Assembly (NCBI RefSeq): GCF_001412085.1
Contig: NZ_LKEV01000002.1
Span: forward strand, 310,001 to 374,000
From: Corynebacterium lowii
GTDB lineage: Bacteria; Actinomycetota; Actinomycetes; Mycobacteriales; Mycobacteriaceae
Length of the DNA stretch: 64,000 nt
Reading direction: 5' to 3'
The translations under genes and the position numbers were made by a program. Numbering within the stretch: the stretch's first letter is position 1; every line of letters starts with the position of its first letter. The notes under the pieces are model-generated. The model saw nothing but the letters and a program-made list of their open reading frames with translations. It was not told the DNA's origin and did not search any database. Below are positions 25,681-59,117 of this stretch, piece after piece.

Positions 25681-25934
25681 CTTTCATCCCTTTCTCGTGC
25701 GATGATCTCGTTGCGTTATCCACAACAGTCACCCCCTCAGCTCTATTCCTCACACCTACCCGCGCCAGGAAAAAGCCTGCTCAGAGCCTCCACGAAAAAT
25801 AATTACTGATCTTTCCTGGGAAATTTGCTCTTCCTCTTCCCATCCTGAAAAACTGCTGCTATCTTTACTCGTGTAGCGCGTGCGTACCCCGCTTTAGCTA
25901 CCGACATGTCAATAACTATCGAGAGGAAAGATCA

Positions 25935-26168
25935 ATGAAGCTCTCCCGCAAGCTGGCCGTTTCCGTTGCCGCAGTGTCCATCGCTACCACCACCGCTGTG
26001 GCCCCCGCTATGGCTGCTGCTCCCAAGACCTACGAGGAGCAGGTTCAGCAGGCTGAGCTGACCGGCAAGCGCATCGACAACGCCAAGAAGGGCGTGGAGA
26101 CCGCTAAGGGCATCGTGGACACCCTGGGTGGCCTGAACAGCCTGTTCGGTGGCGGCAGCGAGAAGTAA
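25935..26168 (+). CDS. Small secreted amphipathic peptide
   Basis: 77 residues. A clear signal peptide (residues 1-28, ending AMAAA) leaves a mature peptide of about 49 residues. This has an acidic/Gln-rich helix (TYEEQVQQAELTGKR) followed by a Gly-rich hydrophobic end (GIVDTLGGLNSLFGGG). GAGAGGAAAG gives a strong ribosome binding site, and a strong terminator follows, so it may be highly expressed. It shares layout with the gene at 58854-59117 (NLKRK/KLSRK start, charged helix with NADKGV/NAKKGV, hydrophobic end). The pattern recalls corynebacterial PorA/PorH-size outer-layer peptides, but I do not recognise the family. Confidence 0.75.
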   Translation: MKLSRKLAVSVAAVSIATTTAVAPAMAAAPKTYEEQVQQAELTGKRIDNAKKGVETAKGIVDTLGGLNSLFGGGSEK

Positions 26169-26187
26169 TTTTCTCCCTCCCTGAATA

Positions 26188-26232
26188 AAAGATTCCCCTC
26201 TTTGGCCCAGGCCAGAGAGGGGAATCTTCTTT
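26188..26232 (+). terminator. Terminator between the small peptide and the convergent NUDIX gene
   Basis: AAAGATTCCCCTC pairs with GAGGGGAATCTT over a 14-nt loop, with further internal pairing, and is followed by CTTTC. The A run upstream makes it likely to act in both directions. Confidence 0.85.
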
Positions 26233-26763
26233 CTATCGTGGGCGCTTGTGATAGCCCATGCGGGGACGAAAACCCGCCGGATGCCGCAATTGCGCCACCG
26301 CATCCGCGCATAAGAGGCGAAAGCGCGGTTGCATGGGCGGCAGCTGGGCCACCTCAAACCACCCCACGTCCACGGACTCATCATCACCGATCACCGGCGT
26401 CTGTTCCCCCGAGACAGAAAGCCGCAGGGCCGTATCCACATAGCTCACGACGTCCCCGTTAGGATAGGTCACCGGCCCCACGGCCCCCACCCCCAACAAG
26501 ACCTCAACCTGAGCCTCCACGCCGGTTTCCTCAAGAACTTCCCGCACGGCAGCATCGTGAGGCTGCTCTCCCGGATCTACGATGCCCGTTACCGGCGTCC
26601 ATTGTCCGTCATCAGCGCGGCGGACTAATAGCACTGAGGGAGTCGCCCAGGCCGGGGCCTCCGAATCCACGTCCTTCACCACAATGGCGGTAACACCCGG
26701 CAGCCACAGTGGATCATGCCCGATCTTTTTCCTTAATTCCACAATAAAATCCGGGGTGGCCAT
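26233..26763 (-). CDS. NUDIX hydrolase
   Basis: 176 residues. The NUDIX box is complete: GIVDPGEQPHDAAVREVLEETG spans about residues 60-81 with the metal-binding REVLEE core. The family hydrolyses nucleoside diphosphates linked to another group; this gene's substrate cannot be told. The ATG at 26763 follows GAAGGCGAT. A terminator (26788-26817) lies just upstream, separating it from the next minus-strand gene, so it should have its own promoter, which I could not identify. Confidence 0.88.
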   Translation of the reverse strand: MATPDFIVELRKKIGHDPLWLPGVTAIVVKDVDSEAPAWATPSVLLVRRADDGQWTPVTGIVDPGEQPHDAAVREVLEETGVEAQVEVLLGVGAVGPVTYPNGDVVSYVDTALRLSVSGEQTPVIGDDESVDVGWFEVAQLPPMQPRFRLLCADAVAQLRHPAGFRPRMGYHKRPR

Positions 26764-27341: not shown

Positions 27342-27713
27342 TCAACTACGAAGAGCGTTTACGTGGCGGTTCACCACAGAACGCAGCATCGCCAGGTTGG
27401 TGCCCTGACGGGAAACAGCCACGTAGATGAACTCGGTGTTGCTCAGCAGACGGATAAGGTGCAGCTGATCCGAAAGGGTAAGCAGCATATCCTCCAGGCC
27501 GGAATCCAGGTTCAGAGCGGCGATGGTCTTGAACTTAGCCTTAACCATCTCACTGTTGTAAGCGGAGGCTACGTCAAGATCGAAGTTGTTGAGACGGGAA
27601 ATGCTGGCCAGCGACATACCGGTGTCCAGATCCACCACGGAAGCACCCAGGAAACCCTCAAGGTCACCTGCGATGTCGTTGAGCATGATATTCAGATCAG
27701 ATTGGCGGGACAT
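27342..27713 (-). CDS. Roadblock/LC7-family protein
   Basis: 123 residues. Single roadblock fold: SDLNIMLNDIAGDLEGFLGASVVDLDTGMSLA at the N-terminus matches the helix-strand opening of the LC7 family. Such proteins dimerise and act on small Ras-like GTPases (MglB acting on MglA; CvnB in Streptomyces conservons). AAAGG lies 11 nt before the ATG. It is divergent from a GTPase gene and a second LC7 gene, and is followed by a low-complexity gene in the same direction. Confidence 0.85.
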   Translation of the reverse strand: MSRQSDLNIMLNDIAGDLEGFLGASVVDLDTGMSLASISRLNNFDLDVASAYNSEMVKAKFKTIAALNLDSGLEDMLLTLSDQLHLIRLLSNTEFIYVAVSRQGTNLAMLRSVVNRHVNALRS

Positions 27714-27906
27714 GTAAAGAGAACCTTTCTTACACGTTGGAGTCTGCCATCCTCCTCCACGGGGTGCGGGGGAGGTGTCCAAGTGCCACAACATTGGTCA
27801 TTAGTGCAATCGTGGCAACGACACTATATTTACCAGAATTATCCGAAAGAATCATGTGATCCACCTGCCGCCACCCCCTTGCCCTACACCCTTAGCGGAT
27901 TCCTTA

Positions 27907-27964
27907 TAGAATACCCATGCAAAGTGACGACATTGAACCTCCTGGCTCCGCGCTGGTGCCATGA
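27907..27964 (+). promoter_or_regulatory. Promoter and possible 15-codon leader ORF before the GTPase gene
   Basis: TAGAAT (27907-27912) is a plausible -10 box. Just after it an ATG at 27917 opens a 15-codon frame (MQSDDIEPPGSALVP) whose TGA (27962-27964) overlaps an ATG at 27961. AGAAGGGA then serves the likely GTPase start at 27982. The leader could be a leaderless-translated regulatory peptide or chance. Confidence 0.4.
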
Positions 27965-27981
27965 CAACAGAAGGGAAAATC

Positions 27982-28608
27982 ATGACCCCTCGCCATCAAC
28001 TCACGAAGGATGGCTCCCCCGTGACCGGCACCGTGCATTCCTCCGGCAATACCTTCGTTGGCTCCCCTACCTCGGCCGAAGTGGTTTTTATTGGTCCCGT
28101 GGGAGTGGGAAAAACCACGGCAGTGGAAACACTTTCTAGCATTCCCACCATCAATACGGAAGCACGGCTTTCCTCCCAAGCAGACCTCTCCCCCGAGCGC
28201 ACCCCCACCAAGCAATCCACCACCGTGGGGCTCGATATTGGTCTATGGGAGCGCCCAGATGGAACTCTCGTGGGACTCTATGGCACCCCCGGTCAGGATC
28301 GCTTTGTCTCATGCCGCACTCCCATGCTGAACCCACAGGCCGGAATAGTCATCTGGCTTTATGGAGATTCCTCGGCGCTGCTTGAGGATCTCTACCACTG
28401 GCTTACCGTGGCCGGAGGTCCCGAAAGCGCCGAGAGGCTCACCGTAGCCCTCAACTATGCCACCACGGATAACCTCTCTGATGTGCAGGCCAGCCTGCGC
28501 AAGCACGGTTATCGAGGTGTGCCGGTACACCTCGTGGACCCCCGCCGTGAAGAGGAAGTGCGCCAGCTCGTTACCACCGCTATTACTCGTCAAGGAATCC
28601 CATCATGA
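27982..28608 (+). CDS. Small Ras-like GTPase of the Roadblock-associated type
   Basis: 208 residues. The P-loop reads GPVGVGKT at 38-45 and the G3 motif GTPGQDRF at 101-108 (in place of DxxG/GQE). The usual NKxD base-specificity motif is not obvious; the equivalent strand reads ALNYATTDN (about 155). This is common in the actinobacterial group that includes Rv3362c and CvnD. ATG 27982 is chosen for its AGAAGGGA; ATG 27961 is the alternative. The last 4 bp overlap the following LC7 gene, so the two are surely translated together. Confidence 0.85.
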   Translation: MTPRHQLTKDGSPVTGTVHSSGNTFVGSPTSAEVVFIGPVGVGKTTAVETLSSIPTINTEARLSSQADLSPERTPTKQSTTVGLDIGLWERPDGTLVGLYGTPGQDRFVSCRTPMLNPQAGIVIWLYGDSSALLEDLYHWLTVAGGPESAERLTVALNYATTDNLSDVQASLRKHGYRGVPVHLVDPRREEEVRQLVTTAITRQGIPS

Positions 28609-29045
28609 TTACTCCCCACTCCAAGATTCGCACTACGGATTTTGACTCCAACCCCTTAGCACAAGCGGCCATGCCTGTCCTCAAAGACATTTTTGAGGCC
28701 TTAGAAGGAGTTAATTCGATCGTGCTCGGCACGGGCGATGGCCTCCATATCTGCTCTATGGGGCTCCCCTCCGCCGTGGAGGGCGCGCAACTTGCCGCTC
28801 TTAATGCCTCTATGGCCGGTGTATCGGCCGCTCAATCGGCCCTGCTCGGGCACAACGACGAGGAAGGAGCTGGCACCATCGTGGCCATGACCTTGCCCGA
28901 TGAAAACCTGGTCATCGGTAGCGTTTCCTTCCCCGAAGTTCACGATCTTCTTTTGGGCGTTTCCGCCCGTAATTCCCAGATCGGTGTGGTGATCCAGCAG
29001 ACCAGGAAGGCCTCTAAGAGGCTTTCCAAGTGGCTGAAAAAATAG
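28605..29045 (+). CDS. Roadblock/LC7-family protein, second copy
   Basis: 146 residues. After a short N-terminal extension (1-20) the roadblock fold begins: LKDIFEALEGVNSIVLGTGDGLHICSMG. It ends in a basic helix (KASKRLSKWLKK) that could touch membrane or nucleic acid. It overlaps the GTPase gene by 4 bp (ATGA), the tightest link in the module, and is probably its direct regulator. A strong terminator follows. Confidence 0.85.
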   Translation: MITPHSKIRTTDFDSNPLAQAAMPVLKDIFEALEGVNSIVLGTGDGLHICSMGLPSAVEGAQLAALNASMAGVSAAQSALLGHNDEEGAGTIVAMTLPDENLVIGSVSFPEVHDLLLGVSARNSQIGVVIQQTRKASKRLSKWLKK

Positions 29046-58768: not shown

Positions 58769-58813
58769 AAACCCCTTTCTTCCTGGTGTTTACTTCCAGG
58801 AAGAAAGGGGTTT
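58769..58813. terminator. Strong bidirectional terminator
   Basis: A perfect 18-bp stem (AAACCCCTTTCTTCCTGG at 58769-58786 with its complement at 58796-58813) and a 9-nt loop, between the permease gene and the convergent small secreted peptide gene. Confidence 0.88.
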
Positions 58814-58853: not shown

Positions 58854-59117
58854 TTAGCCGACGAAGCGAGCCACGGTGTCAGCGATGGTCTTAACGACCT
58901 TGGCGAAGATGTCCACGCCCTTATCGGCGTTCTCCAGGCGCTGCTTCTGAGCCTCGGCCTCATCCTTGGCGGAGTTGGAGGGGGCCACTACTTCCTGCTG
59001 GCCGTAAGCAGGACGATCCTGGCCCACAACGGTCTCAGCGGTGGCGGGGGCGATCGCAGCGGTAGCGGCGATGGCGATGGTGGCGGCAGAAACGGCAAAC
59101 TTGCGCTTCAGGTTCAT
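58854..59117 (-). CDS. Small secreted amphipathic peptide, second type
   Basis: 87 residues. A signal peptide (1-27, AIAPATAE) leaves about 60 residues: a Gln/Pro-rich linker (QDRPAYGQQEVVAPSN), a charged helix (KDEAEAQKQRLENADKGV) and a hydrophobic amphipathic end (DIFAKVVKTIADTVARFVG). GAAGGGA lies 7 nt before the ATG. It resembles the product at 25935-26168 in plan, but similarity beyond the signal peptide and NADKGV/NAKKGV is weak. Size and amphipathic end suggest a cell-envelope or membrane-active peptide; no family is recognised. Confidence 0.75.
   Translation of the reverse strand: MNLKRKFAVSAATIAIAATAAIAPATAETVVGQDRPAYGQQEVVAPSNSAKDEAEAQKQRLENADKGVDIFAKVVKTIADTVARFVG

Follow-up and report, generated by a model that had tools for sequence, protein, structure and literature searches.

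A 77-residue open reading frame of Corynebacterium lowii, gene A (25935-26168, forward strand), appears from its sequence to encode a small peptide of an undescribed family that is restricted to Corynebacterium and whose members bear marks of strong expression. The gene lies in a 64,000-nucleotide stretch of contig NZ_LKEV01000002.1 (positions 310,001 to 374,000), which at its full length is the window to which plain coordinates refer here. The explanation that we prefer, and on which our confidence is about evenly divided, is that the family members are Sec-exported helical peptides that serve the outer envelope as structural components or channels, PorA/PorH-like but unrelated to PorA and PorH in sequence.

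The reading frame of gene A is supported by dN/dS, codon bias and the family profile. It is preceded, 4 bases 5' of its ATG, by a ribosome-binding site, GAGAGGAAAG, read in the sequence (25921-25930, forward strand). Its first 27 codons (25935-26015) encode an N-terminus, MKLSRKLAVSVAAVSIATTTAVAPAMA followed by A, that by eye resembles a Sec signal peptide, and a cut after AMA, also placed by eye, leaves a mature peptide of 50 residues (26016-26165). Hairpin scanning and folding place a terminator hairpin with an 18 bp stem and a 4-nt loop 3' of the gene (26189-26228, forward strand); one such site was found vs. 0.6 expected in shuffles, and the 80-nt stretch at the terminator folds at -38.3 kcal/mol (z -5.5 vs. 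200 shuffles), with a T tail that is broken (CTTTCT). These features agree with the proposal of a first-pass annotation that this is a deliberately made small exported peptide. Alignment of five upstream regions points to a possible extended -10 element, TGC-TATCTT (25857-25865, forward strand), and GCTGCTATCTTTA is kept 5' of all five gene A orthologues, with TATGTT in one; an E. coli-type promoter scan detected no promoter site upstream of gene A, and no Rfam element was detected at 25700-26300 at the gathering threshold. The 5' leader of gene A, GACATGTC...GAGAGG (25903-25926, forward strand), is common to copies A and C of the family: a genome-wide search with the pattern GACATGTCN{8,20}GARAGG gave exactly two matches in the 2.35-Mb C. 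lowii genome, 5' of these two copies, and the form GACATGTC-(N10)-GARAGG occurs at window 25903-25926 (copy A) and G000:C7:13503-13526 (copy C). The palindrome in this leader may be a regulatory site or merely an inherited leader.

Codon usage and divergence point in the same direction. On a CAI-like index with three ribosomal-protein genes of relatives and the window's glnA as reference, gene A scores 0.73, near the top of the 34 uncurated window ORFs, each at least 200 aa long, that served as codon background (median 0.42, maximum 0.735), bearing out the earlier remark that the gene looks highly expressed; the other C. lowii copies score 0.71 (B), 0.78 (C) and only 0.52 (D). Across five gene A orthologues (C. 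lowii, C. mastitidis, C. sp. zg-331, C. oculi and one further species), dN/dS is 0.10-0.30 in ten of ten pairs, which argues that gene A is more than a chance ORF, and dS is 0.16-0.31, vs. 0.53-2.05 for four neighboring genes (12 comparisons). The low dS and the CAI-like index of 0.73 together indicate strong codon bias in gene A, as expected for high expression, and are consistent with an abundant product. We conclude that the product of gene A is, judging by its codons, apparently highly expressed. In all five species gene A has an NAD(P)H-binding gene on one side and a NUDIX gene on the other, identities that Pfam supports for the two neighbors in the window. Beyond the NUDIX gene, at 27342-29045, short roadblock-like proteins surround a small GTPase-like gene (by eye) in an arrangement that is kept in relatives and that we take to resemble a conservon-type module.

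The window contains a second member, B (58854-59117, reverse strand; 87 aa), which the first-pass annotation had picked out as a peptide of the same plan. When group B is left out of the profile, A and B are still the only two of 928 window ORFs that it selects (E 7e-28 and 2e-5; next 1.3), and the mature part of B scores 21.2 bits against this independent profile, vs. at most 6.7 bits for 2000 shuffles. We conclude that B is a true, divergent homologue of A. A hairpin lies between B and a convergent permease-like gene (58770-58812; arms 58770-58786 and 58796-58812, read by eye); it is absent from the terminator scan, in which loops stop at 8 nt.

A search across corynebacteria had been set beforehand, with a lack of homologues as the outcome that would count against the family. 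It returned 37 loci, spread over 20 of 242 Corynebacterium genomes (profiles A2 and A3, weak rows dropped), and a second profile round added no genome besides one weak row, also dropped. The dropped rows comprise two identical ORFs of genome G002 (E 0.002), in which no signal peptide was seen and which were lost in the second profile round, and a weak match in genome G039 (E 0.013). Among 301 genomes sampled across the wider taxonomic family, six had a match, of which four are Corynebacterium genomes already known and two are weak matches outside Corynebacterium (E 0.006 and 0.007), dropped. The earlier suggestion of an undescribed group is upheld by library searches: neither A nor B has a match above chance in Pfam, NCBIfam, PHROGs or PADLOC, the NCBIfam, PHROGs and PADLOC matches at E 0.01-0.8 being taken as chance. 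A single match among solved structures was likewise judged chance. A literature search, mostly outside subscription journals, listed no paper recognizable as being about the family or its motif.

Most carriers have one copy, and a few have several. The C. lowii genome (2.35 Mb, 11 contigs) has four paralogues, A and B in the window, C on contig 7 and D on contig 5; copy number is 3-5 in five species and one in each of the other 15 genomes. C. mastitidis, C. oculi and C. yonathiae are among the carriers with a species name. Protein statistics were computed on 36 sequences, with the copy of G136, which resembles that of G125, excluded and the copy of G239 taken from record L018; the tree was computed on 35 sequences, with the out-of-frame copy of G200 also excluded. 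In this tree (support values not shown) each of copies A to E forms one orthologue group, which suggests that the duplications are older than these species. Copies A, B, C and E are isolated amid housekeeping-type genes; here and below, gene neighborhoods rest on a custom ORF picker and on naming by eye, except where Pfam or NCBIfam is cited. The copy C proteins (L086 8538-8861 and its orthologues) carry a C-terminal Cys after an acidic tail in all five species, possibly permitting a disulphide dimer. In copy C of G200 the signal-peptide region is out of frame.

The members share a plan: a signal peptide, then a linker of variable length that often contains Pro, Ala, Thr and Glu, then one conserved helix. 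A signal-peptide-like N-terminus is seen by eye in 36 of the 37 loci. The conserved helix core, QAELTGKRLDNAKKGVETAKGIVDTLGGLGGLFG, has the consensus QADLTGKRLDNAKKGVxTAKGIVDTLGGLxGLFG over 20 rows, with A21, K23 and G24 of the query row invariant. A Gly-rich end is common to many members and absent from group B. AlphaFold2 predicts mature A as one helix spanning residues 6-45 (mean pLDDT 82.5; 7-row alignment) and B, whose input began one residue beyond the by-eye cut, as a helix spanning residues 19-58 of 59 (mean pLDDT 66.6; block means 71-86 from residue 31; seven sequences). The core is without a conserved serine, and five of 36 mature forms have no Ser at all, whereas all 36 have Thr; serine is the usual site of mycoloylation. 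Mature A is neutral, with seven basic and seven acidic residues.

The amphipathic character of this helix depends on the angle at which it is assessed. In initial hydrophobic-moment tests at 100 degrees alone, A, C, D and the G182 member were not significant (p 0.09-0.29), and B was (p 0.002). After these tests, angles of 95, 100 and 105 degrees and a windowed maximum were tried. For A, with three angles tried, p was 0.013 at 105 degrees, 0.22 at 100 and 0.95 at 95; for the family mean, likewise with three angles tried, p was 0.005 at 105 degrees, 0.06 at 100 and 0.67 at 95. The period of B is nearer 100 degrees (p 0.002, vs. 0.03 at 105). A heptad repeat corresponds to 103 degrees. The first-pass annotation had described an amphipathic Gly-rich end in A. 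The Gly-rich C-terminus is there (GGLNSLFGGG), but the amphipathic part of A is the helix that precedes this tail and not the tail itself, and it is significant at 105 degrees only.

The position of one member in a relative points indirectly to the outer envelope. The interval between groEL2 and ppk2 was used to find PorACj and PorACur, which porA BLAST had not clearly shown, and the two reports describe these PorA-type channels as amphipathic helices with a heptad repeat (PMC3792995, PMC5944148). In G209 this locus has the canonical order groEL2-porH-porA-ppk2 (porH_2 E 2e-29; pora_1 E 2e-9, below the curated cut-off). In G101 the same interval holds a family member, in the orientation opposite to porH/porA, together with a 245-aa signal-less companion with GSSDFL-type repeats, and no other convincing small gene was found in the interval. 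This complete arrangement occurs in G101 only. In G144, groEL2, companion and family member follow in order with insertion-sequence-like genes between them, and the contig stops before ppk2; G188 has companion and member at another locus, separated by 2.1 kb. The window copies are not at groEL2-ppk2, and in C. lowii that interval holds TetR, amidohydrolase and monooxygenase-like genes (by eye), with no porA/porH-like ORF seen. The earlier label "envelope peptide" is plausible, and the groEL2-ppk2 position in G101 lends it indirect support.

The companion begins with MDxLLQIxExVxGPIxDLL and continues in Ser/Gly/Asp repeats (GSSDFL, SELSSGDN); examples are at G000:C1:336156-336356 (L157), L146:10509-11246, L148:8412-8789 and L147:8763-9494, and the G144 companion has no Pfam or NCBIfam match. 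The companion is itself a candidate mycoloylated envelope protein. Among 242 genomes its model matches 30, which include 13 of the 20 with the family vs. 17 of the 222 without it (Fisher 5e-9, uncorrected for descent). Of the 13 genomes with both, three have companion and member close together, at 1.1, 4.4 and 2.1 kb in G101, G144 and G188, respectively, and the other ten have them far apart or on other contigs. The 17 companion genomes without the family, together with the ten unlinked pairs, indicate that companion and family are not obligate partners. The companion is absent from a divergent subfamily (G020, G116, G182 and G183), in which three of four genomes have PorB or PorH, and also from G021, G194 and G224.

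Recognizable porins are scarce in genomes that carry the family. At E 0.001, PorB (PF11565) is present in 108 and PorH (NF033938) in 80 of 242 genomes, with 48 passing the curated cut-off for PorH; these cross-genome counts cover PorB and PorH only, and the PorH model may miss divergent PorH. PorB or PorH occurs in three of 20 family genomes vs. 123 of 222 others (Fisher 7e-4, uncorrected for descent) and in one of 30 companion genomes vs. 125 of 212 others (Fisher 2e-9, uncorrected for descent); PorB alone is matched in two of the 20 family genomes, and 17 of the 20 are without recognizable PorB and PorH. The C. lowii genome has no match to the Pfam and NCBIfam models of PorB and PorH. When the family genomes are collapsed to eight sequence groups, PorB or PorH is present in one of eight and the companion in four of eight. 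We conclude that the anticorrelation with PorB/PorH is confounded by descent (one of eight groups; P 0.07 for PorB).

The proximity of companion and member in three genomes (less than 4.5 kb) and the near-heptad period would also fit a soluble or wall-bound coiled-coil adaptor that pairs, outside the membrane, with the companion or with a CAP-domain protein, a CAP-domain gene lying 5' of copy C in four species (a fifth keeps a remnant) and 5' of copy D in C. lowii. However, C. lowii has about seven copies of such CAP genes, the regions of A and B have no CAP match, and the pairs beside C and D may be one segmental duplication; we consider this adaptor role unlikely. Genes for CAP-domain secreted proteins are at L020:1743-2288, L087:12024-12482 and L149:793-1398, and a CAP-like gene that is 29% identical and on the opposite strand adjoins the C. 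yonathiae-type member. A secreted antimicrobial or competition peptide, that is, a Sec-exported, unmodified, bacteriocin-like helix acting on other bacteria, would account for the small size, the signal peptide, the helix and the Gly-rich end, and copy D lies beside an integrase in a C. mastitidis region that has other small secreted-looking peptides and a cytosine methyltransferase gene (by eye). Mature A is, however, neutral, the paralogue groups track species as in vertical inheritance, and by eye no conserved modification, immunity, transport or export gene lies beside copies A, B, C and E; the lack of an immunity or export gene beside these isolated copies makes an antimicrobial role less likely, and we judge it distinctly improbable. 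Corynaridin, a linaridin bacteriocin, was considered and set aside.

The integrases raise the further prospect of mobile-element cargo, a lysogenic-conversion or surface-exclusion gene spread by integration. In C. mastitidis a tyrosine integrase (L122 13351-14442; Pfam E 3e-18) comes directly 3' of copy D, the integrase 3' of copy D in C. lowii matches only in pieces, a 49% identical integrase lies 3' of the G125 member, and in C. oculi copy C is followed, after 1.4 kb, by an endolysin-like amidase gene (by eye). The integrases beside copy D and the G125 member suggest that one branch of the family travels, or has travelled, with an integrative element. For the family at large, we give this reading very little credence: the regions of A, B, C and E have no match to the copy D integrase, and the C. 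mastitidis A protein, the one member searched, has no match at E 0.1 in 50,697 phage and 72,556 plasmid records, so that for copy A mobile cargo is unlikely. The copy D region (L122:14552-18529; L087:11400-15083) has more small secreted-looking peptides, with a divergent one upstream in both species and a tandem pair in C. lowii. An attachment site inside the copy D gene was considered and set aside: blastn against 20 kb of C. mastitidis, 60 kb of G200, 40 kb of C. oculi and two C. lowii stretches of about 19 kb recovers the region itself, its orthologues and paralogues and hairpins, without a clear second end of the gene. With C. mastitidis, C. oculi and C. yonathiae among the carriers and the peptides predicted to be helical, a host-directed amphipathic peptide of commensals of animal and human surfaces, akin to phenol-soluble modulins, might be imagined. 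Phenol-soluble modulins are leaderless, whereas the family has a signal peptide, and the moment of copy A is modest; such a role seems to us very improbable.

According to the preferred reading, an exported helical peptide of the outer envelope, the precursor would be secreted through Sec and processed to a mature peptide of about 50-110 residues, consisting of the variable linker and the one conserved amphipathic helix, with a Gly-rich hydrophobic end in many members. The exported helix would self-associate through near-heptad spacing, with small residues at the interface, and would bind in or on the mycomembrane or cell wall. For the family peptides we infer secretion, helix assembly, envelope location and any pore alike. 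The arrangement would parallel PorA, PorH and ProtX by a different export route, the signal peptide replacing the signal-less route. Small helical corynebacterial porins are proposed to form helix rings, and for PorH and ProtX a linkage to the cell wall is reported in a preprint (PMC12632848). A bolder version, which we regard as doubtful, is that the family supplies a second, unrelated, Sec-dependent set of small-helix channels or scaffolds, in which duplicated peptides and a signal-less Ser/Gly-repeat partner would take over the outer-membrane role in species without recognizable PorA/PorH and PorB. If true, Sec-routed helical peptides would provide a tractable second system. The libraries searched miss a multi-copy, apparently abundant and putatively secreted peptide family of corynebacteria that include the eye-associated species C. 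mastitidis and C. oculi.

Among known systems, PorB and PorC are secreted, alpha-helical envelope proteins of corynebacteria with a signal peptide; the Pfam model PF11565 spans 99 positions, vs. 50 residues for mature A, and neither A nor B matches this or any other Pfam model at up to E 1. The S-layer protein PS2 has a Sec signal, a disordered region and, as its mycomembrane-binding segment, a C-terminal hydrophobic/amphipathic helix of about 25 residues (PMC12021427). This plan recalls that of the family, but PS2 has about 450-665 residues, a lattice domain and an invariant terminal Phe, and the family peptides have neither the lattice domain nor the Phe. PorA, PorH and ProtX are without Sec signals (PMC12632848), whereas the family has a signal peptide (by eye); most family copies, moreover, lie elsewhere than PorA/PorH and stand alone, and they have no conserved serine. 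A and B have no match to the NCBIfam porin models, although the same library recognizes PorH and PorA, and hhalign of the family with a two-row PorH alignment (one row approximate) gave nothing. The failure of the sequence tests and the presence of a signal peptide argue that the family belongs neither to PorA/PorH nor to PorB. What it shares with PorA, PorH and ProtX is its form: very small Corynebacterium helices with an amphipathic, near-heptad period.
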